Shown here in pieces: positions 4,612 to 48,065 of a stretch of DNA of 64,000 bases. The position numbers and the translations under genes were made by a program. The stretch is from contig OZ025869.1 of the NCBI GenBank assembly GCA_964019415.1, positions 11,302,598 to 11,366,597 of the forward strand, read 5' to 3'. The DNA comes from Ianthella basta (taxonomy: Eukaryota; Porifera; Demospongiae; Verongiida; Ianthellidae). Every line of letters starts with the position of its first letter. The first letter of the stretch is position 1. The notes beneath the pieces are model-generated. The model had not been told where the DNA came from, did not search any database, and saw nothing but the letters and a program-made list of their open reading frames with translations.

Positions 4612-7600
4612 TTATCAATAAGATATTGCAAGATGAAGCAAGAAATTGCAAGATAAGGCAAGAAAATGCAAGATGAGGCGAGATATTGAAAGATGAAGTT
4701 AGATATAGCAAGATGAGGCAAGATATTGCAAGATGAAGTTAGGTATAGCAAGATGAGGCAAGAATTAGCAAGATGAGGCATAATATTGCAAGATGAGGGA
4801 AGAAATTGCAAGAAGAGGCAAGAAAATGCAAGATGAGGTAAGATATTGCAAGATGAGGCAAGAAATAGCAAGATGAGGCAAGAAAACGCAAGATGAGATA
4901 AGATATAGCAAGATGAGGCAAGAAAGGGCAAGATAAGACAAGATATAAGAAGATAAGGCAAGAAATTGCAAGACATGGCAAGAAATTGCAAGATGAGGCA
5001 AGAAAATGCAAGATGAGGCGAGAATTAGCAAGATGAGGCCTAATATTGCAAGATGAGGCAAGAAATTGCAAGATGAGGCAAGAAAATGCAAGATGAGGCA
5101 AGACATTGTTAGATGAGGCAAGAAATAGCAAGATGAGGCAAGAATCAGCAAGATGAGGCAAAATATAGCAAGATAAGGCAAGAAATAGCAAGATTAAACA
5201 AGATATAGTAAGATGAGGCAAGAAAATGCAAGATCAGCAAGATGAGGCATAATATTGCAAGATTAGGCAAGATATAGGAAGATGAGGCAAGGAAATGCAA
5301 GATTAGGCAAGAATCAGCAAGATGAGGCATAATATTGCAATATGAGGCAAGATATAACAAGATGAGGCAAGATGAGGCAAGATATTGCAAGATGAAGCAA
5401 GAAATTGCAAGATAAAGCAAGAAAAAGACAAGATGAGGCTAGATATTTCAAGATGAAGTTAGATATAGCAAGATGAGGCAAGAATCAGCAAGATGAGACA
5501 TAACATTGCAAGATTAGGTAAGACATAGGAAGATGAGACAAGAAAATGCATGATCAGGCAAGAATCAGCAAGATGATGCATAATATTGAAAGATGAGGCA
5601 AGAAATTGCAAGATGAGGCAAGAAAATGCAAGGTGAGGCAAGATAACGCAAGATGAGGCAAGAAAATGCAAGATGAGGCAAGAAATAGCAAGATGAGGCA
5701 AGAAATTGCAAGACGAGGCAAGAAATTGCAGATTAGGCAAGAAAATGCCAGATGAGGCAAGAATCAGCAAGATGAGGCATAATATTGCAAGATTAGGTAA
5801 GTCATAGGAAGATGAGGCAAGAAATTGCAAGATAAGGCAAGATATTGCAAGATGAGGCAAGATATTGCAAGATGAGGAAAGAAATTTCAAGATAAGGAAA
5901 GATATTGCAAGATTAGACAAGAAATAGCAAGATGAGGCAAGAAAATGCAAGATGAGGCAAGAAATAGCTAGATGAAGCAAGAAATTGCAAGATGAGGCAA
6001 GAAATTGCAGATTAGGCAAGAAAATGCCAGATGAGGCAAGAATCAGCAAGATGAGGCATAATATTGCAAGATTAGGTAAGTCATAGGAAGATGAGGCAAG
6101 AAATTGCAAGATAAGGCAAGATATTGCAAGATGAGGCAAGATATTGCAAGATGAGGAAAGAAATTTCAAGATAAGGAAAGATATTGCAAGATTAGGCAAG
6201 AAATAGCAAGATGAGACAAGAAAATGCAAGATGAGGCAAAAATCAGCAAGATGAGACATAATATTGCAAGATTAAGTAAGATATAGGAAGATGAGGCAAG
6301 AAAATGCAAGATGAGGCAAGTAATAGCAAGATGAGGCAAGATATAGTAAGATGAGGCAAGATATTGCAAGATTGGGCAAGAAATTGCAAGATAAGGCAAG
6401 AATAGGCAAGATGATGCAAGATATTGGGAGATGTGGCAAGGTATTGCAAGATGAGGCATAATATTGCAAGACGGGTTAGATATTGCAAGATGAGGCAAGA
6501 TATAGCATGATGAGGCAAGAAATTGCAAATTTAGGCAAGATATTTTAAAATGAGGCAAGAAAATGCAAGATGAGGCCAGAATCAGCAAGATGAGGCATAA
6601 TAGTGCAAGATTAGGAAAGATGTAGAATGATGAGGTAAGAAAGGCATGATTAAACAAGATATAGTAAGATGAAGCAAGAAAATGAACGATCAGCAAGATG
6701 AGGCATAATATTGCAAGATTAGGCAAGATATAGGACGATGCGGCAGGGAAATGCAAGATTAGGCAAGAATCAGCAAGATGAGGCAAGATATTGCAAGAAG
6801 AGGCAAGAAATAGCACGATGAGGCAAGATATAGCAAGATGAGGCAAGATATTGCAAGATTGGGCAAGAAATTGCAAGATAAGGCAAGAAAAGGCAAGATG
6901 ATGCAAGATATTGGGAGATGTGGCAAAGTATTGCAAGATGAGGCATAATATTGCAAGACGGGTTAGATATTGCAACATGAGGCAAGATATAGCATGATGA
7001 GGCAAGAAATTGCAAAATTAGGCAAGATATATTAAGATGAGGCAATAATATGCAAGATGAGGCCAGAATCAGCAAGATGAGGCATAATAGTGCAGGATTA
7101 GGAAAGATATAGAAAGATGAGGCAAGAAAATGCAAGATAAGGCAAGAATCAGCAAGAGGAGGCATAATATCGCAATATGAGGCAAGATATGACAAGATGA
7201 GGCAAGGTGAGGCAAGATATTGCAAGATGAAGTTAGATATAGCAAGATGAGGCAAGAATTAGCAAGATGAGGCCAAATATTGCAAGATGAGGCCAGAAAT
7301 TGCAAGATGAGGCAAGAAAATGCAAGATGAGGCAAGATATTGCAAGATGAGGCAAGAAATAGCAAGATGAGGCAAGAATCAGCAAGATGAGGCAAGATAT
7401 AGCAAGATGAGGCAAGATATAGCAAGATGAGGCAAGTAAAAGCAAGATGAGGCAAGAAACAGCAATAGGAGGCATAATATTGCAATATGAGGCAAGATAT
7501 TGCAAGATGAAGTCAGATATAGCAAGATGAGGCAAGAATTAGCATGATGAGGCCTAATATTGCAAGATGAGGCTAGAAATTGCAAGATTAGGCAATAAAA

Positions 7601-10600
7601 GGTAAGATGAGGCAAGACATTGCAAGATGAGGCACAAAGTAGCAAGATGAGGCAAGAATCAGCAAGATGAGGCAAGATATGAGAAGATGAGGCAAGAAAT
7701 AGCAAGGTTAAACAAGATATAGTAAGATGAGGCAAGAAAATGCAAGATGAGGCAAGAATCAGCAAGATGAGGCATAATATTGCAAGATTAGGCAAGATAC
7801 AGGAAGATGAGGCAAGGAAATGCAGGATGAGGCAAGATATTGCAAGATGAGGCAAGAATCAGCAAGATGAGGCATAATATTGCAGTATGAGGAAAGATAT
7901 AACAAGATGAGGCAAGATGAGGCAAGATAGAGCAAGATGAGGCAAGAATATGCAAGATGAGGCAAGAAAACGCAAGATTAGGCAAGACATTGCAAGATGA
8001 GGCAAGAAATAGCAAGATGAGGCAAGGAAATGCAAGATGAGGCAAGACATTGCAAGATGAGGCAAGAAATAGCAAGATGAGGCAAGATATAGCAAGATGA
8101 GGTAAGATATTGCAAGATAAGCAAGAAATAGCAAGATTAAGCAAGATATAGGAAGATGAGGCAATAAAATGCAAGATGAGGCAAGAATCAGCAAGATGAG
8201 GCAAGAATCAGTAAGATGAGACATAATATTGCAAGATAAGGCAAGATATAGCAAGATGAGGCAAGATATAGCAAGATGAAGCAAGAATTAGTAAGATGAG
8301 GCCTAATATTGCAAGATGAGGCAGGAAATTGCAAGATGAGGCAAGAAAATGCAAGATGAGGGAAGACATTGCCTGATGAGGCAAGATATAGCAATATGAG
8401 GCAAGAAATATATAGCAAGATGAGGCAAGATATAAGAAGATGAGGCAAGAAATAGCAAGATTAAACAAGATGTAGGAAGATAAGGCATAATAGTGCAAGA
8501 TTAGGCAAGATATAGGAAGATGAGGCAAGAAAATGCAAGGCAAGGCAAGATACTGCAAGATGAGGCACGAAAATGCAAGATGAGGCAAGAATCAGTAAGA
8601 TGAGACATAATATTGCAAGATTAGGCAAGATATTGCAAGATGTGGCAAGAATTAGCAAGATGAGACCTAATATTGCAAGATGAGGCAAGACATTGCAAGA
8701 TGAGGCAAGACATTGCAAGATGAGGCAAGAAAATGCAAGATGAGGCAACGTATTGCAAGATGAGGCAAGAAATAGCAAGATGAGGCAAGATATAGCAAGA
8801 TGAGGCAAGACATTGCAAGATGAGGCAAGAAAATGCAAGATGAGGCAACGTATTGCAAGATGAGGCAAGAAATAGCAAGATGAGGCAAGATATAGCAAGA
8901 TGAGGCAAGAAAGTGCAAGATTAGGCAAGTTATAGGTAGATGAAGCAAGAAATTGCAAGACGAGACACGATATTGCAAGATGAGGCAAGGAATTGCAAGA
9001 TGAGGCAAGAAAATGCAAGATGAGGCAAGATATAGCAAGATGAGGCAAGATATTGCAAGATAAGGCAAGAAATTGCAAGATGAGGCAAGAATCAGTAAGA
9101 TGAGACATAATATTGCAAGATTAGGTAAGACATTGCAAGATGAGGCAAGATAATGCAAGATGAGGCAAGATATTGCAAGATGCGGCAAGAATTAGCAAGA
9201 TGAGACCTAATATTGCAAGATGAGGCAAGACATTGCAAGATGAGGCAAGAAAATGCAAGATGAGGCAACGTATTGCAAGATGAGGCAAGAAATAGCAAGA
9301 TGAGGCAAGATATAGCAAGATGAGGCAAGAAAGTGCAAGATTAGGCAAGTTATAGGTAGATGAAGCAAGAAATTGCAAGACGAGACAAGATATTGCAAGA
9401 TGAGGCAAGGAATTGCAAGATGAGGCAAGAAAATGCAAGATGAGGCAAGATATAGCAAGATGAGGCAAGATATTGCAAGATAAGGCAAGAAATTGCAAGA
9501 TGAGGCAAGAATCAGTAAGATGAGACATAATACTGCAAGATTAGGTAAGATATAGGAAGATGAGGCAAGAAAATGCAAGATTAGGAAAGATGAGGCAAGA
9601 TATTGCAAGATGAAGCAAGAAATTGTAGGATAAGCAAGAAATAGCAAGATGAGGCCAGATATAGCAAGATGAGGCAAGAATTAGTATGATGAGGACTAAT
9701 ATTGCAAGATGAGGCAAGAAATTGCAAGATGAGGCAAGAAAATGCAAGATGAGGAAGACATTGCAAGATGAGGCAAAAAATGCAAGATGAGGCAAGAATG
9801 ACCAAGATGAGGCATGATATTGCAAGATTAGGCAAGTTATAGGAAGATGGGGCAAGAAAATGCAAGATGAGGCAACATATTGCAACATGAGGCAAGAAAT
9901 TGCAAGATGAGGCAAGAAAATGCAAGATGAGGGAAGACATTGCAAGATGAGGCAAGATAATGCAAGATGAGGCAAAAAATTAAAAGATGAGGCAAGAAAA
10001 TGCAACAAAGGCAAGAATCAGTAAGATGAACCATAATCTTGCAAGATTAGGCAAGATATAGGACGATGAGGCAAGAAAATGCAAAATGAGGCAAGATATT
10101 GCAAGATGAGACAAGAAAATGCAAGATGAGGCAAGAATCGGTTAGATGAGACATAATATTGCAAGATTAGGCAAGATATAGCAAGATGTGGCAAGAATTA
10201 GTAAGATGAGGCCTATTATTGCAAGATGAGGCAAGATATTGCGAGATGAGGCAAGAAAATGCAAGATGAGGCAAGAATCAGTAAGATGAGACATAATATT
10301 GCAAGATTAGGCAATATAGAGAAAGATGAGGCAAGAAAATCCAAGATGAGGAAAGATTAGGGAAGATATTGCAAGATCAAGCAAGAAATTGCAAGATAAG
10401 GCAAGAAATAGCACGATGAGGCAAGATATAGCAAGGTGAGGCAAGATTTTTCAAATGAGGCAAGAAATTGCAAGATGGGGCAAAAAATGCAAGATGAGGC
10501 AAGAATCATGAAGATGAGGCATGATATTGCAAGATTAGGCAAGTTATAGGAATATAAGGCAAGAAAATGCAAGATGAGGCAAGATATTGCAACATGAAGC

Positions 10601-13600
10601 AAGAAATTGCAAGATGAGGCAAAAAATGCAAGATGAGGCATGACATTGCAAGATGAGGCAAGATATTGCAAGATGAGGCAAAAATTTTAAAGATAAGGCA
10701 AGTAAATGCAACAAAAGGCAAGAATCAGTAAGATAAGACATAATATTGCAAGATTAGGCAAGATATAGGAAGATGAGGCAAGAAAATGCAAGACGAGGCA
10801 CGATATTGCAAGATGAGGCAAGATATTGCAAGATGAGGCAAGAAAATGCAAGATGAGGCAAGAATCAGTGAGATGAGACATAATATTGCAAGATGAGGCA
10901 AGATATTGCAAGGTGAGGCAAGAAATTGCAAGATGAGACAAGATATTTCGAGATGAGGCAAGACAATGCAAGATGAGACAAGAATCAGTAAGATGAGACA
11001 TAATATTGCAAGATTAGGCAAGATATAGGAAGATAAGGAAAGAAAATGCAAGATGAGGAAAGATGAGGCAAGATATTGCAAGATGAAGCAAGAAATTGCA
11101 AGATATAGCAAGAAATAGTAAGATGAGGCAAGATATAGCAAGATGAGGCAAGATTTTTCAAAATGAGGCAAGAAATTGCAAGATGAGGCAAGATATTGCA
11201 AGACGAGGCAAGAAATTGCAGGATGAGGCAAGATATTGCGAGTTGAGGCAAGAAAATGCAAGATGAGGCAAGAATCAGTAAGATGAGACATAATAGAGCA
11301 AGATTAAGCAATATATAGGAAGATGAGGCAATAAAATGCAAGATGAGGCAAGATTTTTCAAAATGAGGCAAGACATTGCAAGATGGGGCAAGACATTGCA
11401 AGATGAGGCAAAAAATTGGAAGATGAGGCAAGAAAATGCAACAAAGGCAAGAATCAATAAGATGAGGCATAATATTGCAAGATTAAGCAAGATATAGGAA
11501 GATGAGGCAAGAATTAGCAAGATGAGGCCTAATATTGCAAGATGAGGCAAGAAAATGCAAGATGAGGCAAGAAATTGTAAAATGAGGCAAGGAAATGCAA
11601 GATGAGGCAAGAATCAGCAAGATGAGGCATAATATTGCAAGATTAGGCAAGCTATAGAAAGATGAGGCAAGAAAATGCAAGATGAGGCAAGATATTGCAA
11701 GATGAAGCAAGAAAAGGCAAGATGAGGCAAGAAAATGCAAGATGAGGCAAGATATTACAAGATGAGGCAAGAAATTGCAAGATGAGGCAAGAAATTGCGA
11801 GATGAGGTAAGAAAATTCAAGATGAGACAAGAATCAGTAAGATAAGACATAATATTGCAAGATTAGACAAGATATAGGAAGATGAGGCAAGTAAATGCAA
11901 GATGAGGAAAGATATAACAAGATGAGGCAAGTTATTGCAAGACGAGGCAAGAAATTGCAAGATGAGGCAAGATATTGCGAGATGAGGCAAGAAAAAGCAA
12001 GATGAGGCTAGAATCAGTAAGATGAGACATAATATTGCAAGATTAAGCAATATATAGGAAGATGAGGCAAGAAAATACAAGATGAGGAAAGATGAAGCAA
12101 GATATTGCAAGATGAAGAAAGAAATTGCAAGATAAGGCAAGAAATAGCAAGATGAGGCAAGAAATAGCAAGATGAGGCAAATAATGCAAGATGAGGGAAG
12201 AGATTGCAAGATGAGGCAAGATATTGCAAGATGAGACAAAAAATTGAAAGACGAGGCAAGGAAATGCAACAAAGGCAAGAATCAGTAAGATGAGACATAA
12301 TATTGCAAGATTAGGCAAGCTATAGGAAGATGAGGCAAGAAAATGCAAGATGAGGCAAGATATTGCAAGATGAGGCAAGAAAATGCAAGACGAGGCAAGA
12401 AAATGCAAGATGAGGCAAGATATATCAAGATGAGGCAAGGTATTGCAAGATGAGGCAAGAAATTGCAAGATGAGGAAATAATTTGCAAGATGAGGCATAA
12501 TATTGCAAGTTTAGGCAAGGTATAGGAAGATGAGGCAAGCAAATGCAAGATGAGGAAAGATATTGCAAGATGAGGCAAGAAAATGCAAGATGAGGCAAGA
12601 ATCAGCAAGATGAGGCATAATAGTGCAAGATTAGGCAAGATATAGGAAGATGAGGCAATAAAATGCAAGATGAGGCAACTTAAGAATCAGCAAGATGAGG
12701 CAAGAAATTGCGAGATGAGGCAAGAAAATGAAAGATGAGGCAAGAATCAGTAAGATGACATAATATTGCAAGATGAGGCAAGATATTGCGAGATTTGGCA
12801 AGACAATGCAAGATGAGACAAGAATCAGTAAGATGAGACATATTATTGCAAGATTCGGCAAGATTATAGGAAGATGAGGCAAGAAAGTGCAAGATGAGGA
12901 AAGATGAGGCAAGATATTGCAAGGTGAAGCAGGTAATTGCAAGATAAGGCTAGAAATAGTAAGATGAGGCAAGATATAGCAAGATGAGGCAAGATTTTTC
13001 AAAATGAGGCAAGAAATTGCAAGATGAGGCAAGATATTGCAAGACGAGGCAAGAAATTGCAGGATGAGGCAAGATATTGCGAGTTGAGGCAAGAAAATGC
13101 AAGATGAGGCAAGAATCAGTAAGATGAGACATAATAGAGCAAGATTAAGCAATATATAGGAAGATGAGGCAATAAAATGCAAGATGAGGCAAGATTTTTC
13201 AAAATGAGGCAAGACATTGCAAGATGGGGCAAGACATTGCAAGATGAGGCAAAAAATTGGAAGATGAGGCAAGAAAATGCAACAAAGGCAAGAATCAATA
13301 AGATGAGGCATCAATAAGATGAGGCAAGATAATGCAAGATGAGGCAAGAAAAAGCAAGATGAGGCAAGATATAGCAAGATGGGGCAAGAAATTGCAAGAT
13401 TAGATAAGAAATTGCAAGATAAGGCAAGAAAATGCAAGATGAGGCAAGATATTGGTAGATGAGGCAAGATATTGTAAGGTGAGGCATAATATTGCAAGAT
13501 GGGTTAGATATTGCGAGATTTGGCAAGACAATGCAAGATGAGACAAGAATCAGTAAGATGAGACAGTCATATTATTGCAAGATTCGGCAAGATTATAGGA

Positions 13601-16600
13601 AGATGAGGCAAGAAAGTGCAAGATGAGGAAAGATGAGGCAAGATATTGCAAGGTGAAGCAGGTAATTGCAAGATAAGGCTAGAAATAGCAAGAAGAGGCA
13701 AGATATTGCAAGATGAGGCAAGATTTTTAAAATGAGGCAAGAAATTGCAAGATGAGGCAAGAATCAGAAAGATGAGGCATGATATTGCAAGATTAGGCAA
13801 GTTATTGGAAGATGAGGCAAGAAAATGCAAGATGAGGCAAGATATTGCAACATGAGGCAAGAAATTGCAAGATAAGGCAAGAAAATGGAAGATGAGGGAA
13901 GACATTGCAAGATGAGGCAAAATTTATAAGATGAGGCAAGAAAATGCAAGAAAAGGCAAGAATCAGTAAGATGAGGCATAATATTGCAAGATTAGGCAGG
14001 ATATAGGAAGATGAGGCAAGAAAATGCAAGATGAGGTAAGAAATTATAAGATGAGGCAAGGAAATGCAAGATGAGGCAAGAATCAGCAAGATGAGGCATA
14101 ATATTGCAAGATTAGGCAAGCTATAGGAAGATGAGGAAAGAAAATGCAAGATGAGGCAAGATATTGCAAGATAAGGCAAGAAGTTGCAAGATGAGGCAAG
14201 AAAATGCAAGGCAAGGCAAGAAAATACAAGATGAGGCAAGAATCAATATGATGAGACATAATATTGCAAGATTAGGCAAGATACAGGAAGATGAGGCAAG
14301 AAAATGCAAGATGAGGAAAGATATAGCAAGATGAGGCAAGAAAATGCTAGATGAGGCAAGAATCAGTTAGATGAGACAAGATATAGCAAGATGAGGCAAG
14401 AAATAGCAAGATTAAACAAGATGTAGGAAGATGAGGCAAGAAATAGCAAGATGAGGCAAGAAAGTGCAAGATAAGGCAATATATAGGAAGATAAGGCGAG
14501 AAAATGCCAGACAAGGCAAGATATTGCAAGATGAGGCAGAAATTGCAAGATGAGGCAAGAAAATGCAAGATGAGGCAAGACATTGCAAGATGAGGCAATA
14601 TATAGCAAGATGAGGCAAGAAATAGCAAGATGAGGCAAGATATAGGAAGATGAGGCAAGAAATTGCAAGACGAGGCAAGATACAGCAAGATGAGGCAAAA
14701 TATTGCTAGATAAGGCAAGATATAGCAAAATAAGGCAAGAAAATCCAAGATGAGGCAAGACATTGCAAGATGAGGCAAGGAAATGCAAGACAAGGCAAGA
14801 AAATGCAAGATGAGGCAAGGTATTGCAAGTTTAGGCAAGAAATAGCAAGATGAGGCAAGATATAGCAAGATGAGGCAAGATATTGCAAGATGAGGCAAGA
14901 AACAGCAAGATAAGACATAATATTGCAAGATTAGGCAAGATATAGGAAGATGAGGCAAATAAATGCAAGATGAGGAAAGATATAACAAGATGAGGCAAGA
15001 TATTGCAAGATGAGGCAAGAAATTGCAAGATGAGGCAAGATATTGCGAGATGAGGCAAGAAAATGCAAGATGAGGCTAGAATCAGTAAGATGAGACATAA
15101 TATTGCAAGATTAAGCAATATATAGGAAGATGAGGCAAGAAAATACAAGGAGGAGGAAAGATGAAGCAAGATATTGCAAGATGAAGAAAGAAATTGCAAG
15201 ATAAGGCAAGAAATAGCAAGATGAGGCAAGAAATAGCAAGATGAGGCAAAAAATGCAAGATGAGGGAAGAGATTGCAAGATGAGGCAAGATATTGCAAGA
15301 TGAGACAAAAAATTGAAAGACGAGGCAAGGAAATGCAACAAAGGCAAGAATCAGTAAGATGAGACATAATATTGCAAGATTAGGCAAGCTATAGGAAGAT
15401 GAGGCAAGAAATAGCAAGATTAAACAAGATGTAGGAAGATGAGGCAAGAAATAGCAAGATGAGGCAAGAAACAGCAAGATAAGACATAATATTGCAAGAT
15501 TAGGCAAGATATAGGAAGATGAGGCAAATAAATGCAAGATGAGGAAAGATATAACAAGATGAGGCAAGATATTGCAAGATGAGGCAAGAAATTGCAAGAT
15601 GAGGCAAGATATTGCGAGATGAGGCAAGAAAATGCAAGATGAGGCTAGAATCATGAGACATGAGACAATCAGTAAGATGAGACATAATATTGCAAGATTA
15701 GGCAAGCTATAGGAAGATGAGGCAAGAAATAGCAAGATTAAACAAGATGTAGCAAGATGAGGCAAGATATTGCAAGATGAGGCAAGAAACAGCAAGATAA
15801 GACATAATATTGCAAGATTAGGCAAGACATGGTAAAATGAGGAAAGAAATGCAAGATGAGGCAAGAATCAGCAAGATGAGGCATAAAATTGCAAGATGAG
15901 GCATAAAATTGCAAGATGAGGCAATATATGACGAAATATATAAGGCATGAAATTGCAACATGAGGCAAGAATCAGCAAGATGAGACATAATATTGCAAAA
16001 TTATGCAAGATATAGCAAGATGAGGCAAGACTTAGTAAGATGAGGCCTAATATTGCAAGATGAGGCAAGAAATTGCAAGATGAGGCAAGAAAATGCAAGA
16101 TGAGGCAAGACATTGCAAGAAGAGGCAAGATATAGCAAGATGAGGCAAGAAATAGCCAGATTAGGCAAGAGATAGGAAGATGAGGCAAGAAAGTCCAAGA
16201 TAAGGCAAGATATATGAAGATGAGACAAGAAAATGCAAGATGATGCAAGGTAATGCAAGATGAGGCAAGAAAAAGCAAGATGAGGCAAGATATAGCAAGA
16301 TGAGGCAAGAAATTGCAAGATTAGGCAAGAAATTGCAAGATAAGGCAAGAAAATGCATGATGAGGCAAGATATTGGGAGATGAGGCAAGATATTGCAAGA
16401 TGAGGCATAATATTGCAAGATGGGTTAGATATTGCAAGATGAGGAAAGATATAGCATGATGAGGCAAGAAATTGCAAGATTAGGCAAGATATAGGAAGAT
16501 GAGGCAAGAAAATGCAAGATGAGGAAAGAATCAGCTAGATGAGGCATAATATTGCAATATGAGGCAAGATATGACAAGATGAAGCAAGATGAGGCAAGAT

Positions 16601-19600
16601 ATTGCAAGATGAAGTTAGATATAGCAAGATGAGGCAAAAATTAGCAAGATGAGGACAAATATTGCAAGACGAGGCAAGAAATTGCAAGACGAGGCAAGAC
16701 ATTGCAAGAAGAGGCAAGAAAATGCAAGATGAGGCAAGAATCAGCAAGATGAGGAATAAAAATTGCAAGATGAGGCAAGATAGAGAAAGATGAGGCAAGA
16801 AAATGCAAGATGAGGCAAGATATTACAAGATGAGGCAAGAAAATGCAAGATGAGGCAAGATTCAGTTAGATGAGACAAGATATAGCAAGATGAGGCAAGA
16901 AATAGCAAGATTAAACAAGATGTAGGAAGATGAGGCAAGAAATAGCAAGATGAGGCAGGTTATAGGAAGATGAGGCAAGAAAGTGCAAGATAAGGCAATA
17001 TATAGGAAGATGAGGCAAGAAAATGCAAGAAGTGGCAAGATATTGCAAGATGAGGCAAGACATTGCAAGATGAGGCAAGAAAATGCAAGATGAGGCAAGA
17101 CATTGCAAGATGAGGCAATATATAGCAAGATGAGGCAAGAAATAGCAAGATGAGGCAAGATATAGGAAGATGAGGCAAGAAAGTGCAAGATAAGGCAAGA
17201 TATAGGAAGATGAGGCAAGTTATTGCAAGATGAGGCAAGAAATAGCAAGATGAGGTAAGATATAGCATGATGAGGCAAGATATTGCAAGATGAGGCAAGA
17301 AGTTGCAAGATGAGGCAAGAAAATGCGAGATGAGGCAAGAAAATGCAAGACAAGGCAAGAAAATGCAAGATGAGGCAAGATATTGCAAGTTTAGGCAAGA
17401 AATAGCAAGATAAGGCAAGATATAGCAAGATGAGGCAAGATATTGCAAGATGAGGCAAGAAACAGCAAGATGACGCATAATGTTGCAAGATTAGGTAAGA
17501 TATAGTATAATGAGGAAAGAAATGCAAGATGAGGCAAGAATCAGCAAGATGAGGCATAAAATTGCAAGATGAGTCAATATATGACGAAATATATAAGGCA
17601 AGAAATTGCAACATGAGGCAAGAATCAGCAAGATGAGACATAATATTGCAAGATTAGGCAAGGTATAGCATGATGAGGCAAGAATTAGTAAGATGAGGCC
17701 TAATATTGCAAGATGAGGCAAGAAATTGCAAGATGAGGCAAGAAAATGCAAGATGAGGCAAGATATTGCAAGATGAGGCAAGAAATAGCAAGATCAAACA
17801 AGATATATGAAGATGAGGCAAGAAAATGCAAGATGAGGCAAGACATTGCAAGATGAGGCAATATATAGCAAGATGAGGCAAGAAATAGCAAGATGAGGCA
17901 AGATATAAGAAGATGAGGCAAGAAATTGCAAGATAAGGCAAGATATAGGAAGATGAGGCAAGTTATTGCAAGATGAGGCAAGAAATAGCAAGATGAGGTA
18001 AGATATAGCAAGATGAGGCAAGATATTGCAAGATGAGGCAAGAAGTTGCAAGATGAGGCAAGAAAATGCAAGATGAGGCAAGAAAATGCAAGACAAGGCA
18101 AGAAAATGCAAGATGAGGCAAGATATTGCAAGTTTAGGCAAGATATAGCAAGATGAGGCAAGATATAGCAAGATGAGGCAAGATATTGCAAGATGAGGCA
18201 AGATATTGCAAGATGAGGCAAGAAACAGCAAGATGACGCATAATGTTGCAAGATTAGGCAAGACATAGTATAATGAGGAAAGAAATGCAAGATGAGGCAA
18301 GAATCAGCAAGATGAGGCATAAAATTGCATGATGAGTCAATATATGACGAAATATATAAGGCAAGAAATAGCAACATGAGGCAAGAATCAGCAAGATGAG
18401 ACATAATATTGCAAGATTAGGCAAGGTACAGCAAGATGAGGCAAGATTTAGTAAGATGAGGCCTAATATTGCAAGATGAGGCAAGAAATTGCAAGATGAG
18501 GCAAGAAAATGCAAGATGAGGCAAGACATTGCAAGAAGAGGCAAGATATAGCAAGATGAGGCAAGAAATAGCCAGATGAGGCAATATATAGGAAGATGAG
18601 GCAAGAAAGTGCAAGATAAGGCAAGATATATGAAGATGAGGCAAGAAAATGCAAGACGAGGCAAGATATTGCAAGATGAGGCAAGAAATTGCAAGATGAG
18701 GCAAAAAATGCAAGATGAGGCAAGAAAATGCAGCAAAGGCAAGAATCAGTATATGATGAGACATAATATTGCAAGATTAGGCAAGATATAGGAAGATGAG
18801 GCAAGAAAAAGCAAGATGAGGTAAGATATTGCAAGATGAGGCAAGAAAATGCAAGATGAGGCAAGATATAGCAAGATGAAGAAAGATATTGCAAGATGAG
18901 GCAAGAAATTGCAAGATGAGGTATGAAAATGCAAGATGAGGCAAGAATCAGCAAGATGAGGCATAATATTACAAGATTAGGCGAGATATAGGAAGATGAG
19001 GCAAGAATACAAGATGAGGCAAGATGTTGCAAGTTGAGGCAAGGAATTGCAAGATGAGGCTAGGAAATGCAAGATGAGGGAGGATATTGCAAGATGTGGA
19101 AAGATATTGCAAGATGAGGCGAGAAATTGCAAGATGAGGCTAGAAAATGTAAGATGAGGCAAGAATCAGCAAGATGAGGCATAGTCTTGCTAGATTAGGC
19201 AAGATATAGGAAGATGAAGCACGAAAATGCAAGATGAGGCAAGAAATTGCAAGATGAGGCAAGAAAATGCAAGATGAGGCAAGAAACAGCAAGATGAGGC
19301 ATAATATTGCAAGATTAGGCAAGACATAGTAAAATGAGGAAAGAAATGCAAGATGAGGCTAAAATCAGCAAGATGAGGCATAATATTGCAAGATGAGGCA
19401 ATATATGACGAAATATATAAGGCAAGACATTGCAACATGAGGCAAGAATCAGCAAGATTAGGCCTAATATTGCAAGATGAGGCAAGAAATTGCAAGATGA
19501 GGCAAGAAAATGCAAGATGAGGCAAGACATTGCAAGAAGAGGCAAGATATAGCAAGATAAGGCAAGATATAGGAAGATGAGGCAAGATATTGCAAGATGA

Positions 19601-22741: not shown

Positions 22742-22743
22742 AG

Positions 22744-22761
22744 TGGCGACGAAGGTGGGAT
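22744..22761 (+). promoter_or_regulatory. Primer-binding site, probably tRNA-Ser-like
   Basis: TGGCGACGAAGGTGGGAT starts two bases after the 5' LTR and ends exactly at the gag ATG. TGG pairs with a tRNA CCA end; the next C implies a G discriminator base, which is usual for serine tRNAs. The tRNA identity is inference. Confidence 0.7.
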
Positions 22762-23193: not shown

Positions 23194-23196
23194 GTG

Positions 23197-25534: not shown

Positions 25535-25542
25535 AGCTCACC

Positions 25543-35600: not shown

Positions 35601-38600
35601 CATAAAATTGCAAGATAAAGCAAGATAGAGAAAGATGAGGCAAGAAACAGCAAGATGAGGCAAGATATTAGAAGTTGAGGCAAGAAAATGCAAGACAAAG
35701 CAAGATATTACAAGATGAGGCAAGTAATTGCAAGATGAGGCAAGAAAATTCAAGATGAGGTAAGATATTATGAAATGAAGTTAGATATAGCAAGATGAGG
35801 TAAGGATTAGCAAGATGAGGCCTTATATTGCAAGATAAGGCAAGAAAATGCAAGATGAGGCAAGAATCAGCAAGATGAGGCATAATCTTGCAAGATTAGG
35901 CAAGATATAGGAAGATGAGGCAAGAAAATGCAAGATGAGGCAAGAAATTACAAGATGAGGCAAGAAAATGCAAGATGAGGCAAGAAATTGCAAGATGAGG
36001 TAAGAAAATGCAAGATGAGGCAAGACATTGCAAGACGAGGCAAGAAAATGCAAGATGAGGCAAGAATCAGCAAGATGAGGCATAATATTGCAAGATTAGG
36101 CAAGATATAGGAAGATGAGGCAAGAAAATGCAAGATGAGGCATGAAATTGCAAGATGAGGCAAGAAAATGCAAGACGAGGCAAGAAACAGCAAGATGAGG
36201 CATAATATTGCAAGATTAGGCAAGACATAGTAAAATGAGGAAAGAAATGCAAGATGAGGCAAAAATCAGCAAGATGAGGCATAATATTGCAAGATGAGGC
36301 AATATATGACGAAATATATAAGGCAAGAAATTGCAACATGAGGCAAGAATCAGCAAGATTAGGCCTAATATTGCAAGATGAGGCAAGAAATTGCAAGTTG
36401 AGGCAAGAAAATGCAAGATGAGGCAAGACATTGCAAGAAGAGGCAAAATATAGCAAGATAAGGCAAGATATAGGAAGATGAGGCAAGATATTGTAAGATG
36501 AAGTTGGATATAGCAAGACGAGGCTTAATATTGCAAGATTAGGTAAGATATAGGAAGTTGAGGCAAGAAAATGCAAGATAAGGAAAGATATTGCAAGATG
36601 AGGCAAGAAATTTCAAGATGAGGAAAGCTATTGCAAGATTAGGCAAAAACATACAAGATGAGGCAGACATTAGCAAGATGAGGCATAATTATGCAAGATT
36701 AAGTAAGATATAGAAAGATGAGGCGAGAAAATTTAAGATGAGGCAAGAAAAAGCAAGATGAGGCAAGATATAGCAAGATGAGGCAAGAAGTTGCAAGATT
36801 AGACAAGAAATTGCAAGATAAGGCAAGAAAATGCAAGATGAGGCAAGATATTGGGAGATGGGGCAAGATATTGCAAGATGAGGCATAATATTGCAAGATG
36901 GGTTAGATATTGCAGGATGAGGTAAGATATAACATGAAGAGGCAAGAAATTGCAAGATTAGGCAAGATATAGGAAGATGATGCAAGAAAATTTAAGATGA
37001 GGAACGAATCAGTTAGATGAGGCATAATATTGCAATATGAGGCAAGATATGACAAGATGAAGCAAGATGAGGCAAGATATTGCAAGATGAAGTTAGATAT
37101 AGCAAGATGAGGCAAAAATTAGCAAGATGAGGCCAAATATTGCAAGACGAAGCAAGAAATTGCAAGATGAGGCAAGACATTGCACGATGAGGCAAGAAAA
37201 AGCAAGATGAGGCAAGAATCAGCAAGATGAGGCAAGATATAGGAAGATGAGGCAAGAAAATACAAGATGAGGCAAGAATCAGCAAGATGAGGCATAATAG
37301 TACAAGATTAGGCAAGATATAGGACGATGAGGCAAGAAAATGCAAGATGAGGCAAGATATTGCAAGATGAGACAAGAAAATGCAAGATGAGGCAAGAATT
37401 AGCAAGCTGAGACATAATATTGCAAGATTAGGCTAGATATAGCAAGATGAGGCTAGAATTAGTAAGATGAGGCCTAATATTGCAAGATGAGACAAGAAAT
37501 TGCACGATGAGGCAAGAAAATGCAAGATGAGGCAAGAATCAGCAAGATGAGGCATAATAGTGCAAGATTAGGCAAGCTATAGGAAAATGAGGCAAGAAAA
37601 AGCAAGATAAGGTAAGGTATTGCAAGATGAGGCAAGAAAATGCAAGATGAGGCAAGATATAGCAAGATGAGGAAAGATATTGCAAGATAAGGCAAGAAAT
37701 TGCAAGATGAGGGATGGAAACGCAAGATGAAGGAAGAATCAGCAAGATGAGGCATATTATTACAAGATTAGGTGAGATATAGCAAGATGAGGCAAGAATA
37801 CAAGATGAGGCTAGATGTTGCAAGATGAGGCAAGAAATTGCAAGATGAGGCTAGAAAATGCTAGATGACGGAAGATGTTGCAAGATGTGGAAAGATATTG
37901 CAAGATGAGGCGAGAAATTGGAAGATGAGGCTAGAAAATGCAAGATGAGGCATAATCTTGCAAGATTAGGCAAGACATAGTAAAATGTGGAATGAAATGC
38001 AAGATGAGGCAAAAATCAGCAAGATGAGGCAAAGATTAGTAAGATGAGGCCTAATATTGCAAGATGAGGCAAGAAATTACAAGATGAGGCAAGAAAATGC
38101 AAGATGAGGCAAGACATTGCAAGAAGAGGCTAGATATAGCAAGATGAGGTAAGAAATAGCAAGAAGAGGCAAGATATAGGAAGATGAGGGAAGAAAGTGC
38201 AAGATGAGGCAAGATATAGGAAGATGAGGCAAGAAAATGCAAGAAGTGGCAAGATATTGCAAGATGAGGCAAGAAATTGCAAGATGAGGCAAGAATCAGT
38301 TAGATGAGACAAGATATAGCAAGATGAGGCAAGAAATAGCAAGATTAAACAACATGTAGGAAGATGAGGCTAGAAATAGCAAGATGAGGCAAGATATAGG
38401 AAGATGAGGCAAGAAAGTGCAAGATAAGGCAATATATAGGAAGATGAGGCGAGAAAATGTAAGACAAGGCAAGATATTGCAAGATGAGGCAAGAAATTGC
38501 AAGATGAGGCAAGAAAATGCAAGATGAGGCAAGACATTGCAAGATGAGGCAATATATAGCAAGATGAGGCAAGAAATAGCAAGATGAGGCAAGATATAGG

Positions 38601-41600
38601 AAGATGAGGCAAGAAAGTGCAAGATAAGGCAAGATATAGAAAGATGAGGCAAGTAATTGCAAGATGAGGCAAGAAATTGTAAGATGAGGCAAGAAACAGC
38701 AAGATGAGGCAAAATATTGCAAGATGAGGCAAGATATAGCAAGATAAGGCAAGAAAATCCAAGATGAGGCAAGACATTGCAAGATGAGGCAAGAATTTGC
38801 AAGTTTAGGCAAGAAATAGCAAAATGAGGTAAGATATAGCAAGATGAGGCAAGATATTGCAAGATGAGGCAAGAAAATGCAAGACAAGGCAAGAAAATGC
38901 AAGATGAGGCAAGATATTGCAAGTTTAGGCAAGAAATAGCAAGATGAGGCAAGAAACAGCACGATGAGGCATAATATTGCAAGATTAGGCAAGACATAGT
39001 AAAATGAGGAAAGAAATGCAAGATGAGGCAAGAATCAGCAAGATGAGGCATAATATTGCAAGATTAGGCAAGATATAGCAAGATGAGGCAAGAAATAGCC
39101 AGATGAGGCAAGATATAGGAAGATGAGTCAAGAAAGTGCAAGATAAGGCAAGATATATGAAGATGAGGCAGGAAAATGCAAGACGAGGCAAGATATTGCA
39201 AGATGAGGCAAGAAATTACAAGATGAGGCAAAAATGCAAGATGAGGGAAGACATTGCAAGATGAGGCAAGATATTGCAAGATGAGGCAAAAAATTGAACG
39301 ATGAGGCAAGAAAGTGCAGCAAAGGCAAGAATCAGTAAGATGAGACATAATATTGCAAGATTAGGCAAGATATAGGAAGATGAGGCAAGAAAATGCAAGA
39401 TGAGGTAAGATATTGCAAGATGAGGCAAGAAATTGCAAGATGAGGCAAGAAAATGCAATATGAGGCAAGAATCAGCAAGATCATGTATAATATTGCAAGA
39501 TTAGGAAAGCTATAGGAAGATGAGGCCAGAAATAGCAAGATGAGGTAAGATATTGCAAGATGAGGCAAGAAAATACAAGATGAGGCAAGATATAGGAAGA
39601 TGAGGCAAGAAAATGCAAGATGAGGTAAGATATTGCAAGATGAGGCAAGAAATTGCAAGATGAGGTATGAAAATGCAAGATGAGGCAAGAATCAGCAAGA
39701 TGAGGCATAATATTACAAGATTAGGCGAGATATAGGAAGATGAGGCAAGAATACAAGATGAGGCAAGATGTTGCAAGTTGAGGCAAGGAATTGCAAGATG
39801 AGGCTAGAAAATGCAAGATGAGGGAAGATATTGCAAGATGTGAAAAGATATTGCAAGATGAGGCAAGAAATTGCAAGATGAGGCAAGAAAATGCAAAATG
39901 AGGCAACAATCAGCAAGATGAGGCATAATCTTGCAAGATTAGGCAAGATATAGGAAGATGAGGCAAGAAAATGCACGATGAGGCAAGATATTGCAAGATG
40001 AGGCAAGAAAATGCAAGATAAGGCAAGAAACAGCAAGATGAGGCATAATATTGCAGGATTAGCCAAGACATAGTAAAATGAGGAAAGAAATGCAAGATGA
40101 GGCAAAAATCAGCAAGATGAGGCATAATATTGCAAGATGAGGCAATATATGACGAAATATATAAGGCAAGAAATTGCAACATGAGGCAAGAATCAGCAAG
40201 ATTAGGCCTAATATTGCAAGATGAGGCAAGAAATTGCAAGATGAGGCAAGAAAATGCAAGATGAGGCAAGATATAGGAAGATGAGGCAAGAAAATGCAAG
40301 ATGAGGTAAGCTATTGCAAGATGAGGCAAGAAATTGCAAGATGAGGTATGAAAATGCAAGATGAGGCAAGAATCAGCAAGATGAGGCATAATATTACAAG
40401 ATTAGGCGAGATATAGGAAGATGAGGCAAGAATACAAGATGAGGCAAGATGTTGCAAGTTGAGGCAAGGAATTGCAAGATGAGGCTAGAAAATGCAAGAT
40501 GAGGGAAGATATTGCAAGATGTGGAAAGATATTGCAAGATGAGGCAAGACATAGTAAAATGAGGAAAGAAATGCAAGATGAGGCAAAAATCAGCAAGATG
40601 AGGCATAATATTGCAAGATGAGGCAATATATGACGAAATATATAAGGCAAGAAATTGCAACATGAGGCAAGAATCAGCAAGATTAGGCCTAATATTGCAA
40701 GATGAGGCAAGATATAGGAAGATGAGGCAAGAAAATGCAAGATGAGGTAAATATTGCAAGATGAGACAAGAAATTGCAAGATGAGGCTAGAAAATGCAAG
40801 ATGAGGGAAGATATGGCAAGATGTGGAAAGATATTGCAAGATGAGGGAAGAAATTGCAAGATGAGGCAAGAAAATGCAAGATGAGGCAACAATCAGCAAG
40901 ATGAGGCATAATCTTGCAAGATTAGGCAAGATATAGGAAGATGAGGCAAGAAAATGCACGATGAGGCAAGAAATTGCAAGATGAGGCAAGAAAATGCAAG
41001 ATAAGGCAAGAAACAGCAAGATGAGGCATAATATTGCAAGATTAGGCAAGACATAGTAAAATGAGGAAAGAAATGCAAGATGAGGCAAAAATCAGCAAGA
41101 TGAGGCATAATATTGCAAGATGAGGCAATATATGACGAAATATATAAGGCAAGAAATTGCAAGATGAGGCAAGAATCAGCAAGATGAGGCATAATATTAC
41201 AAGATTAGGCAAGAAATTGCAAGATGAGGCAAGAAAATGCAAGATGAGGCAAGACATTGCAAGAAGAGGCAAGATATAGCAAGATAAGGCAAGATATAGG
41301 AAGATGAGGCAAGATATTGCATGATGAAGTTAGATATAGCAAGATTAGGCAAGACATAGTAAAATGAGGAAAGAAATGCAAGATGAGGCAAACATCAGCA
41401 AGATGAGGCATATTATTGCAAGATGAGGCAATATATGACGAAATATATAAGGCAAGATATTGTAACATGAGGCAAGAATCAGCAAGATTAGGGCTAATAT
41501 TGCAAGATGAGGCAAGAAATTGCAAGATGAGGCAAGAAAATGCAAGATGAGGCAAGACATTGCAAGAAGAGGCAAGATATAGCAAGATAAGGCAAGATAT

Positions 41601-44600
41601 AGGAAGATGAGGCAAGATATTGCATGATGAAGTTGGAAATAGCAAGACGAGGCTTAATATTGCAAGATTAGGTAAGATATAGGAAGTTAAGGCAAGAAAA
41701 TGCAAGATAAGAAAAGATATTGCAAGATGAGGCGAGAAATTTCAAGATGAGGAGAGCTATAGCAAGATTAGCCAAGAAATAGCAAGATGAGACAAGAAAA
41801 TACAAGATGAGGCAAAACATTAGCAAGATGAGGCATAATTTTGCAAGATTAAGTAAGATATAGAAGATGAGGCAAGAAAATGCAAGATGAGGCAAGAAAA
41901 TGCAAGATGATGCAAGATAATGCAAGATGAGGCAAGAATCATCAAGATGAGGCATAAAAATTGCAAGATTAGGCAAGATAGAGAAAGATGAGGCAAGAAA
42001 ATGCAAGATGAGGCAAGAATCAGTTAGATGAGACAAGATATAGCAAGATGAGGCAAGAAATAGCAAGATGAGGCAAGATATAGCAAGATGAGGCAAGAAA
42101 TTGCAAGATTAGAAAAGATATAGAAAGATGAGGTAAGAATCAGTTAGATGAGGCATAATATTGCAATATGAGGCAAGATATGAGAAGATGAAGCAAGATG
42201 AGGCAAGATATTGCAAGATGAAGTTAGATATAGCAAGATAAGGCAAGAATTAGCAAGATGTGGTCAAATATTGCAAGACGAGGCAAGAAATTGCAAGATG
42301 AGGCAAGAAAATGCAAGATGAGGCAAGACATTGCAAGATGAGGCAAGAAATAGCAAGATGAGGCAAGAATCAGCAAGATGAGGCATAATAGTGCAAGATT
42401 AGGCAAGATATAGGAAGATGAGGCAAGAAAATGCAAGATGAGGCAAGATATTGCAAGATGAGACAAGAAAATGCAAGATGAGGCAAGAATCAGTTAGATG
42501 AGACATAATATTGCAAGATTAGGCAAGATATAGCAAGATGAGGCAAGAATTAGTAAGATGAGGCCTAATATTGCAAGATGAGGCAAGAAATTGCAAGATT
42601 AGGCAAGAAAATGCAAGATGAGGCAAGAATCAGGAAGATGAGGCATAATAGTGTAAGATGAGGCAAGATATAGCAAGATGAGGCAAGAAAGATTCGGCAA
42701 GAAAATGCAAGATGAGGCAAGAATCAGGAAGATGAGGCCTAATATTGCAAGATGAGGCAAGAAATTTCAAGATGAGGAAAACCATTGCAAGATTAGGCAA
42801 GAAATAGCAAGATGAAACAGAAAAATGCAAGATGAGGCAAACATTAGCAAGATGAGGCATAATTTTGCAAGATTAAGTAAGATATAGAAAATGAGGCAAG
42901 AAAATGCAAGATGAGGCAAGAAAATGCAAGATGATGCAAGGTAATGCAAGATGAGGCAAGAAAAAGCAAGATGAGGCAAGATATAGCAAGATGAGGCAAG
43001 AAATTGCAAGATTAGGCAAGAAATTGCAAGATAAGGCAAGAAAATGCAAGATGAGGCAAGAAAATGCAAGATGAGGCAAGATATTGCAAGATGAGGCATA
43101 ATATTGCAAGATGGGTTAGATATTGCAAGATGAGGCAAGATATAGCATGATGAGGCAAGAAATTGCAAGATTAGGCAAGATATAGGAAGATGAGGCAAGA
43201 AAATTCAAGATGAGGAAAGAATCAGTTAGATGAGGCATAATATTGCAATATGAGGCAAGATATGACAAGATGAAGCAAGATGAGGCAAGATATTGCAAGA
43301 TGAAGTTAGATATAGCAAGATGAGGCAAAAATTAGCAAGATGAGGCCAAATATTGCAAGACGAGGCAAGAAATTGCAGATGAGGCAAGACATTGCAAGAT
43401 GAGGCAAGAAAAAGCAAGATGAGGCAAGAATCAGCAAGATGAGGCAAGATATAGGAAGATGAGGCAAGAAAATGCAAGATGAGGCAAGAATCAGCAAGAT
43501 GAGGCATAATAGTGCAAGATTAGGCAAGATATAGCAAGATGAGGCAAGAAAATGCCAGATGAGGCAAGATATTGCAAGATGAGACAAGAAAATGCAAGAT
43601 GAGGCAAGAATCAGTTAGATGAGACATAATATTGCAAGATTAGGCAACATATAGCAAGATGAGGCAAGAATTAGTAAGATGAGGCCTAATATTGCAAGAT
43701 GAGGCAAGAAATTGCACGATGAGGCAAGGAAATGCAAGACGAGGCAAGAATTAGCAAGATGAGGCATAATAGTGCAAGATAAGGCAAGATATAGGAAGAT
43801 GAGGCAAGAAAATGCAAGAATTGGCAAAATATTGCAAGATGAGGCAAGACATTGCAAGATGAGGTAAGAAAATGCAAGATGAGGCAAGATATTGCAAGAT
43901 GAAGTTAGATATAGCAAGATGAGGCAAGAATTAGCAAGATGAGGCCAAATATTGCAAGATGAGGCAAGAAATTGCAAGATGAGGCAAGAAAATGCAAGAT
44001 GAGTCTAGATATTGCAAGATGAGGCAAGAAATAGCAAGATCAAAAAGATATATGAAGACGAGGCAGGAAAATGCAAGATGAGGCAAGAATAACCAAGATT
44101 AGGCAAGAAATTGCAAGATGAGGTAAGAAAATGCAAGATTAGGCAAGACATTGCAAGATGAGGCAAGATATAGCAAGATGAGGCAAGAAATTGCAGGATG
44201 AGGCAAGATATAGCAAGATGAGGCAAGATATTGCAAGATTAGGCAAGAAATTGCAAGGTAAAACATGAAAATGCAAGATGAGGCAAGATATTGGGAGATG
44301 AGGCAAGATATTGCAAGCTGAGGCATAACATTGACAGATGGGTTAGATATTGCAAGATGAGGCAAGACATAGCATGATGAGGCCAGAAATTGCAAGATTT
44401 GTCAAGATATAGGAAGATAAGGCAAGAATCAGCTAAATGAGGCAAGAATCAGCAAGATGAGGCATAATAGTGCAAGTTTAGGCTAGATATAGGAAGACGA
44501 GGCATAATATTGCAATATGAGGCAAGATATGACAAGATGAGGCAAGATGAGGCAAGATTATGCAAGATGAAGTTAGATATAGCAAGATAAGGCAAGAATT

Positions 44601-47600
44601 AGCAAGATGAGGCCAAATATTGCAAGATGAGGCAAGAAATTGCAAGATGAGGCAAGAAAATGCAAGATGAGGCTAGATATTGCAAGAAGAGGCAAGAAAT
44701 AGCAAGATCAAACAAGATATATGAAGACGAGGCAAGAAAATGCAAGATGAGGCAAGAATAACGAAGATGAAGCATGAAAATTGCAAGATGAGGCAATATA
44801 GAGAAAGATGAGGCAAGAAAATGCAAGATGAGGCAAGGTATTACTAGATTAGGCAAGAAATTGCAAGATGAGGCAAGAATTAGTAAGATGAGGCCTACTA
44901 TTGCAAGTTGAGGCAAGAAATTGCAAGATGAGGCAAGAAAATGCAAGATGAGGCAAGGCATTGCAAGAAGAGGCAAGATATAGCAAGATGAGGCAAGAAA
45001 TAGCCAGATGAGGTAAGATGTAGGAAGATGAGGCAAGAATTAGCAGGATGAGGCAAGCTATTGCAAGATGAGGCAAGATATTGCAAGATGAAGGTAGATG
45101 TAGTAAGATGAGGCTTAATATTGCAAGATTAGGCAATAAATAGCAAGATGAGGCAAGAAAATGCAAGATGAGGCAATCATCAGCAAGATGAGGCATAATT
45201 TTGCAAGATTAAGTAAGATATAGAAAGATGAGGCAATAAAATGCAAGATGAGGCAAGAAAATGCAAGATGATGCAAGATAATGCAAGATGAGGCAAGATA
45301 TTGCAAGATTAAGCAAGATATAGGAAGATAAGGCAAGAAAATACAAAATGAGGCAAGATATTGGGAAATGAGGCAAGATATTGCAAGATGAGGCATAATA
45401 TTGGAAGATGGGTTAGATATTGCAAGATGAGGCAAGATATAGGATGATGAGGCAAGCAATTGCAAGACTAGGCAAGATATAGGAAGATAAGGTAAGAACC
45501 AGCAAGATGAGACAAGAATCAGCAAGATGAGGGATAATATTGCAATATGAGGCAAGATATGACAAGATGAAGCAAGATGAGGCAAGATATTGCAAGATGA
45601 AGTTAGATATAGCAAGATGAGGCAAGAATTAGCAAGATGAGGCCAAATATTGCAAGATGAGGCAAGAAATTGCAAGATGAGGCAAGAAAATGCATAATGA
45701 GGCAAGACATTGCAAGATGAGACAAGAAAATGCAAGACGAGGCAAGAATCAGTTAGATGAGACATAATATTGCAAGATTAGGCAAGATATAGCAAGATGA
45801 GGCAAGAATTAGTAAGATGAGGCCTAATATTGCAAGATGAGGCAAGAAATTGCAAGATGTGGCAAGAAAATGCAAGATGAGGCAAGAAAATGCAAGATGA
45901 GGCAAGACATTGCAAGATGAGATATGATATAGCAAGATGAGGCAAGAAATAGCAAGATGAGGCAAGAAAATGCAAGATGAGGCAAGATATTGCAAGATGA
46001 GGCAAGAAAATGCAAGATGAGGCAAGATATTGCAAGATGAAGTTTGATATAGCAAGATGAGGCAAGATATAGCAAGATGAGGCAATAAATAGCAAGACGG
46101 GTTAGATATTTCAAGTTGAGCCAAGATATAGCATGATGAGGCAAGAAATTGCAAGATTAGGCAAGATAAAGGAAGATGAAGCAAGAATCAGCAAGATGAG
46201 GCATAATAGTGTAAGATTAGGCAAGATATAGAAAGTTGAGGCAAGAAAATGCAAGATGAGGCAAGATGAGGTAAGATATTGCAAAATGAAGTTAGATATA
46301 GCAAGATGAGGCAAGAAATAGCAAGACGAGGCCAAATATTGCAAGACAAGGCAAGAAATTGCAAGATGAGGCAAGAAAATGCAAGATGAGGCAAGACATT
46401 GCAAGATGAGGCAAGAAATAGCAAGATAAGGCAAGATATAGGGAGATGAGGCAAGAAAGTGTAAGATAAGGCAAGATATATGAAGATGAGGCAGGAAAAT
46501 GTAAGACGAGGCAAGATATTGCAAGATGAGGCAAGAAATTGCAAGATGAGGCAAGAAAATGCAAGATGAGGCAAAACCTTGCAAGATGAGGCAAGATATA
46601 GCAAGATGAGGCAGGAGAGTGCAAGATAAGCAAGATATAGGAAGATGAGGCAAGAAAATGCAAGACGAGGCAAGATATTGCAAGATGAGGCAAGATATTG
46701 CAAGATGAAGTTAGATATAGCAAGATGAGGCAAGAATTAGCAAGATGAGGCCTAATATTTCAAGATGAGGCAAGAAAAAGCAAGATTAGGCAAGAAATAG
46801 CAAGATGAGGCAAGATATAGGAAGATGAGGCAAGAAAGTGTAAGATAAGGTAAGATATATGAAGATGAGGTAAGAAAATGCAAGATGAGGCAAGACATTG
46901 AAAGATGAGGCAAGATATAGCAAGATGAGGCAGGAGAGCGCAAGATAAGGCAAGATATAGGAAGATGAGGCAAGAAAATGCAAGACGAGGCAAGAAAATG
47001 CAAGATGAGGCAAGATATTGCAAGATGAAGTTAGATATAGCAAGATGAGGCAAGACATTGCAAGATGAGGCAGGATATAGCAAGATGAGGCAAGAAATAG
47101 CAAGATAAGGCAAGATATAGGAAGATGAGGCAAGAAAGTGTAAGATAATGCAAGATATATAAAGATGAGGCAAGAAAATGTAAGACGAGGCAAGATATTG
47201 CAAGGTGAGGCAAGAAATTGCAAGATGAGGCAAGAAAATGCAAGATGAGGCAAGACATTGCAAGATGAGACAAGATATAGCAAGATGAGGCAGGAGAGTG
47301 CAAGATAAGGCAAGATATAGGAAGATGAGGCAAGAAAATGCAAGACGAGGCAAGATATTGCAAGATGAGGCAAGATATTGCAAGATGAAGTTAGATATAG
47401 CAAGATGAGGCAAGAATTAGGAAGATGAGGCAAGAAAGTGTAAGATAAGGCAAGTTATATGAAGATGAGGCAAGAACATGCAAGATGAGGCAAGATATTG
47501 CAAGATGAGGCAAGATATATGAAGATGAGGCAAGAAAATGCAAGATGAGGCAAGAATCAGCAAGATGAGGCTTAAAATTGCAAGATAAGGCAAGATAGAG

Positions 47601-48065
47601 AAAGATGAGCCAAGAAAAAGTAAGATGAGGCAAGATAGAGAAAGATGAGGCAAGAAAATGCAAGATGAGGCAAGATATTGCAAGATTAGGCAAGATAATT
47701 ATAGGAAGATGATGAGGCAAGAAAATTCAAGATGAGGAAAGAATCAGTTAGATGAGGCACAATATTGCAATATGAGGCAAGATATGACAAGATGAAGCAA
47801 GATGAGGCAAGATATTGCAAAATGAAATTACATAATAGCAAGATGAGGCAAAAATTAGCAAGATGAGGCCAAATATTGCAAGACGAGGCAAGAAATTGCA
47901 AGAGGAGGCAAGACATTGCAAGATGAGGCAAGAAAAAGCAAGATGAGGCAAGAATCAGCAAGATGAGGCAAGATATAGGAAGATGAGGCAAGAAAATGCA
48001 AGATGAGGCAAGAATCAGCAAGATGAGGCATAATAGTGCAAGATTAGGCAAGATATAGAAAGATG
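32635..48065 (+). repeat. Giant 20-bp satellite, block 3 (about 15.4 kb, runs into the gap)
   Basis: Monomer and orientation continue after the LINE up to the first N at 48066. Higher-order blocks are prominent. A module carrying ATATATGACGAAATATATAA recurs at about 36300, 40143, 40624, 41127 and 41429, and the pair at 40143/40624 is part of a 480-bp tandem duplication. Blocks with a GATGGGTTAGATATTGC variant recur at about 36897, 43112, 44336 and 45410. The right end is unknown because it lies in the gap. Confidence 0.97.

Follow-up and report, generated by a model that had tools for sequence, protein, structure and literature searches.

A satellite array within a gene cluster of the sponge Ianthella basta, probably an isolated interior subfamily of a genome-wide decamer family

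The array and its surroundings

The window, by which we mean the whole stretch of 64,000 nucleotides analysed here (C2:11302598-11366597), contains a long tandem array lying about 4.4 Mb from the nearer end of scaffold C2, among copies of one gene (Table 1). The 413-aa protein of this gene matches eight places in the 141.5 kb around the window, all on one strand. Three of the eight are, by our own grouping, full or near-full length in one frame, and the remaining places are partial, frame-split, stop-bearing or cut by N. The two copies between which the array was originally predicted to lie are indeed two of these eight places. Neither frame of the right copy has a Pfam match at E 0.01. A second frame, of 195 aa, is also duplicated in this region (window 48364-48951 and C2:11279310-11279903; 86% identical), within a block that is 95-96% alike.

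Table 1. Features of the window, in window positions, and related places elsewhere in the assembly
Feature	Position	Strand	Remarks
Left gene copy	1277..2465	-	two frames, one stop; looks broken
Array-adjoining flank	3713..4611 (C2:11306310-11307208)		94.2% identity with the upstream array's flank
Left array piece	4612..22487	+	about 900 monomers of 20 bp; edge common with the upstream array
Ty3-type LTR element within the array	22488..27041	+	LTRs and flanks, domain matches
Middle array piece	27042..31735	+	about 237 monomers by wrap-around alignment; count starts at base 27040
LINE-like inserted piece	~31736..32636	-	about 0.9 kb, starts with a 5-bp microsatellite; class by eye
Right array piece	32637..48065	+	about 775 monomers, cut by the gap; count starts at base 32641
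Assembly gap	48066..48265		200 N, window scan; cuts the array on its right side
Right gene copy	58186..60290	-	frames of 413 and 170 aa; look of a multi-pass membrane protein by eye
Candidate interior clusters (Mb)	C1 13.95-14.00; C2 11.24-11.35; C3 3.45-4.12; C5 3.03; C6 1.32-1.40; C10 1.50-1.58; perhaps C4 12.19-12.27		pattern matches
21-bp satellite	C1:16515839; C2:186047; C4:436968; C6:102545 and 9744378; C9:8131124; C18:15593; C21:6502704; C23:160396		exact 69-mer

TRF reports a single array in the window, of period 20, at positions 4620-48065 with 69% matches. In an ungapped scan of the window allowing up to five mismatches, the 20-mer consensus is found at 1,791 places on the plus strand and at none on the minus strand, and the reversed 20-mer, scanned as a control, is found nowhere. 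Wrap-around alignment counts about 1,912 head-to-tail monomers in three pieces (900.4, 236.9 and 775.2) over 37,997 satellite bases, with a monomer identity of 86-87%, in good agreement with the original prediction of about 1,900 monomers in 38 kb. The right end was expected to be unseen and is so, with the array running into the 200-N gap; the 37,997 bp are therefore the visible part of the array, and its length across the gap may be wrong. The satellite strand consists of A 0.45, G 0.28, T 0.17 and C 0.10 (purine 73%), and in 1-kb windows wholly within the satellite the GC skew is 0.43-0.54 and the AT skew 0.40-0.52, which bears out the strong purine and G bias predicted for one strand; as to the heterochromatic or R-loop-prone domain also put forward there, this skew is what the sequence shows. 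Being a long head-to-tail array of one unit, it is short-unit satellite DNA, of a kind already known.

The predicted 20-bp monomer agrees with the TRF period, to which an underlying structure has to be added: the 20-mer is a dimer of a decamer, both halves of which share GCAAGA followed by four variable bases. The basic period of 10 bp is seen as a weaker signal in the window and as a full period-10 array in its relatives. In the wrap-around alignment the majority base reaches a frequency of 0.79-0.97 in monomer columns 1-16 and of only 0.49, 0.65 and 0.62 in columns 17, 19 and 20, respectively.

Two insertions interrupt the array. The Ty3-type element has LTRs of 254 bp each (22488-22741 and 26788-27041) that differ at two positions, is flanked by a 5-bp target duplication (TGAGG) and carries gag, reverse transcriptase, RNase H and integrase domains. 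The LINE-like piece carries a 194-aa frame which by eye resembles the end of a LINE reverse transcriptase and has no Pfam match at E 0.01. Since both split the array, the array is older than either of them. The LTR family of the Ty3-type element has 40 scored matches genome-wide, with identities of 97-100%; most of them lie in the interior of chromosomes, and they have no tie to satellites.

A second array with a similar flank

Another array is located upstream on C2 (11244290-11260418), with its left flank at C2:11243367-11244267. The two interior arrays of C2 are 47 kb apart with gene copies between them, and no further array was found in what can be read of the 141.5 kb surrounding the window. 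A neighbouring exon segment is 96.2% identical between the two array-bearing gene copies, compared with 80-84% in other copies. A third gene copy has a related flank (88-89%), in which the similarity ends short of the array position.

The similarity of the two array-bearing copies appears to continue into the satellite itself. Over the first 103 columns the array edges are 96.1% identical with a score of 87.5, and when the edge piece was compared with 1,004 places in the interior of the window array, no score exceeded 74.5. This edge-sharing result is modest, because among 400 random interior pairs, with a mean identity of 85%, the best scored 86.0 and also reached 96.1%. An earlier ungapped control gave an average of 70% and a maximum of 89%. 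The next seven collinear pieces past the edge, at 77-94% identity, resemble random interior pairs, so collinearity of the two arrays is lost after about 100 bp. The arrays match one another at about 80% in many registers, the same as each array against itself. The array was probably duplicated together with its gene, and the interiors were turned over in each copy afterwards.

A stretch of exactly 5,000 N (C2:11235598-11240597) lies inside a gene copy 3.7 kb before the upstream array; it differs from the 200-N gap of the window and could represent withheld sequence or a gap of a different type.

A subfamily private to the C2 interior

A diagnostic 48-mer of the window array has all 11 of its genome matches at C2:11252638-11341664, and a 50-mer has all 21 at C2:11.25-11.35 Mb. 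Long k-mers frequent in the end arrays of C1 and C2 are missing from the window and upstream arrays and vice versa; some other 36-mers are common to the C2 interior arrays and the end arrays. Judged by these private k-mers, the two C2 interior arrays therefore look like one closed pool. A minisatellite found only here, the outcome that the original prediction had set against itself, describes the subfamily, which is confined to the C2 locus, and not the wider family, which is genome-wide.

Distribution of the family in the genome

The assembly comprises 209.09 Mb in 96 contigs, with 206.2 Mb in 23 chromosome-size scaffolds, of which C2 is the second largest. The whole-assembly search proposed at the outset gave both the copy number of the exact 20-mer, 143 matches (114 on the plus and 29 on the minus strand), and its distribution; 62 matches lie in the window, and the sequence is not confined to it. 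Relatives that were read have array periods of 10, 20, 30 and 50 bp, and of 35 bp in another branch. For the 30/50-bp branch, a 70-mer gives 92 exact matches and is common letter for letter to 11 of the 23 scaffolds (C1, C2, C5, C6, C8, C10, C12, C15, C20, C21 and C23); it is also present in the small contigs C38, C42 and C60. A 50-mer of this branch (176 matches) adds C7 among the matches listed. Patterns of the 35-bp branch (68, 716, 20 and 59 matches) add C3, C4, C14, C17 and C22 among the matches listed, as well as further clusters and small contigs.

When the matches listed are merged by hand at about 300 kb, they form at least 28 clusters on at least 17 scaffolds, one of which (C1 8.27 Mb) is a single match and several others one or two matches; ends known by reading (C9 left, C13 right, C16 left and C17 right) and small contigs are left out of the 28. 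Among the matches listed, 21 of the 28 clusters are no more than 0.7 Mb away from a scaffold end, against an expected 4.4 (15.6%; P = 4e-12), and 17 lie within 0.2 Mb. The family as a whole is thus enriched near chromosome ends, though the window array itself is far from one. Counting the ends of C9, C13 and C16 in addition to the clusters, the family is present on at least 20 of the 23 chromosome-size scaffolds. Exact patterns among the matches listed and short end reads revealed no relative on C11, C18 and C19. Exact patterns miss diverged arrays, and array lengths outside the read stretches are spans of matches.

The 43 scaffold ends that were read (23 left and 20 right, with 200 bases to 10 kb covered at each) give the same picture. 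Eight stop inside the family (C1, C6, C10, C13 and C17 at the right, C9, C16 and C17 at the left), five have telomere repeats and one is all N. The array at the right end of C1 reaches the last bases of the scaffold, and on C21 a pattern match finishes 8 bases short of the right end. On the left arm of C2, an array of 370 bp lies 3.5 kb inward of the telomere repeats, and more of the family is found at 110-155 kb, where the strand switches at sharp junctions (about 131.5-132.7, 137.66 and 146.8 kb). The single orientation noted in the original prediction therefore stands for the window and is not a rule of the family. Among the matches listed, the purine strand of the 30/50-bp branch runs inward at nine ends and outward at two, with C2 left mixed. 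A rule of orientation relative to the telomere is ruled out for the family by the 35-bp branch, which is split nine to nine among the matches listed.

A 21-bp satellite, GGGGGTCCAGTGCATCCTGTA, is present beside end arrays. Its 69-mer has 11 exact matches, all within 0.45 Mb of scaffold ends, and on nine ends it lies on the minus strand at the left and on the plus strand at the right, in the orientation of the telomere G-strand. On C2 (131.5-132.7 kb), a diverged stretch of it is oriented the other way round. Both sampled ends of C15 have another short repeat, of CTGCAGACAGGAAGTCGTTTG type, in mirror orientation, and at the left end of C3 (1-400) CCCTAA repeats give way, head to head, to TTAGGG repeats. 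The contig C96 (21,233 bp) contains COX1 with nine in-frame TGA codons; sponges and cnidarians have a mitochondrial code in which TGA encodes tryptophan, and the codons fit such a code.

Searches outside the assembly found no match of the 20-mer in viral_contigs and none of a 27-mer in genome_contigs; these cover viruses and prokaryotes and carry little weight. A text search of the literature for the decamer found no satellite-titled paper among the matches listed.

Origin of the array and alternative explanations

Taken together, the shared flank and edge, the private variants, the pool shared by the end arrays and the end-weighted map make it likely that the window array belongs to a genome-wide satellite family, with a unit of about 10 bp made up of GCAAGA and four variable bases, and forms an interstitial subfamily of it that is locally isolated. 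One array would have existed beside one gene copy before array and neighbouring gene were copied together. Unequal exchange or slippage would enlarge the arrays and repeatedly overwrite their interior, and the outermost monomers would escape overwriting and retain the old order. Arrays at chromosome ends would exchange among themselves. The C2 interior pool, isolated by its position, would exchange only with itself and, as we propose, has therefore drifted to its 20-bp organisation. Exchange or slippage as the driver, exchange among end arrays and isolation by position are what we infer from the pattern of repeats. The interior clusters on C5 and C6 contain the end-type 70-mer, so it takes more than an interior position to isolate an array.

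A centromere satellite is the alternative that we have kept, because five of the six largest scaffolds have an interior cluster lying over 0.7 Mb away from an end (a C4 cluster lies 0.46 Mb from the end of its scaffold). The interior clusters would then be centromeres or pericentromeres and the end arrays spill-over or acrocentric centromeres. It is consistent with this that the matches listed within each interior cluster are on one strand and that the excerpt of PMC8122249 lists satellites of 10 bp as centromeric for two species of Drosophila. However, one main cluster per chromosome is not what was found: among the matches listed, 10 of the 23 scaffolds have two or more clusters (C1 has three and C3 two) and 11 of the 17 mapped scaffolds have end clusters only, and with exact patterns three scaffolds have none. 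The C2 locus, moreover, is a gene cluster: the arrays lie among gene copies of which some have open frames, and about 47 kb occupied by gene copies separates them. The family's presence at many scaffold ends and this setting speak against the centromeric domain suggested in the original prediction, and we consider such a role unlikely. It is slightly more doubtful still that the decamer family forms centromeres through chromosome-specific subfamilies, such as that of C2, in the interior clusters, with GCAAGA presented once per helical turn to a dedicated binding protein.

The remaining readings have less in their favour. A function within the gene cluster, by which the array would regulate the neighbouring gene or its other strand would code for a repeat protein, could be suspected from the start of both arrays beside the same gene-copy flank, on the upstream side of the gene, and from open runs of up to 315 codons on the pyrimidine strand. 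Yet eight gene places match in the 141.5 kb and no other array was found there, both array-bearing copies look broken or N-interrupted, and shuffling the monomers of the left piece equalled or exceeded the observed 308-codon run in 140 of 200 trials, so a coding repeat on that strand is unsupported and a functional element is very improbable. We give still less credence to a relic of chromosome fusion, in which a former chromosome end now lies inside C2. The mainly terminal family and the rank of C2 as second largest scaffold would suit it, but the C2 subfamily is private to its locus and not of the end type, and in the 141.5 kb neither the 21-bp end satellite, at up to five mismatches, nor any TTAGGG/CCCTAA units in runs of two or more were found, though the 5,000-N and 200-N stretches could conceal some. 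Just as remote is an assembly artefact, with the array misplaced or collapsed; the 200-N gap on its right and the 5,000-N stretch 3.7 kb before the upstream array might hint at one, but both arrays have unique left junctions with gene flanks, the upstream array has a right junction with gene-cluster sequence, and the window array contains private variants and two insertions.

With the array as an isolated interior subfamily, no positive function is needed. Its physical effect is likely to be that of a repetitive, strongly strand-biased chromatin block within a gene cluster. The GCAAGA core varies less than the tail. Its columns do not, however, contain fewer low-frequency variants than those of the tail, and turnover of variants, instead of selection, can therefore explain the constancy of the core, as far as the monomer alignment tells.

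Comparison with known satellites

One and the same repeat is seen here in two settings, as arrays near chromosome ends with long identical stretches in common between scaffolds and as an interior pool evolving by itself. For this pool, the gene duplication around it serves as a clock, with flanks 94% alike, an array interior that has turned over and an outer edge that is kept. The map also names the interior clusters as first candidates for centromere function. Sponge satellites are little described as far as the literature searched shows; a search for Porifera and satellite DNA found nothing on them by title or abstract start.

The rep20 repeat of Plasmodium falciparum resembles the present family in being subtelomeric and tandem, with a short and degenerate unit of about 20 bp; organism and sequence are different. 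We know of no private interior subfamily of rep20.

The Drosophila 10-mer satellites, Prodsat (AATAACATAG) and AATAGAATTG of D. simulans, are listed as centromeric in the excerpt of PMC8122249. Like the C2 array they have a 10-bp unit, long arrays and an A-rich strand. The unit found here, GCAAGATGAG, is by eye unrelated to either of the units given there, and in contrast to their listed centromeric position the decamer family lies mostly near scaffold ends. The potato satellites CL14 and CL34 are described, in the part of PMC3276127 drawn on here, as subtelomeric, with units of 182 and 339 bp, and restricted to distal ends, whereas the present family has a 10-bp unit and several interior clusters. 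As with CL14 and CL34 in that part of the paper, long arrays of the family occupy many chromosome ends, some of them near telomere repeats, and evolve rapidly.
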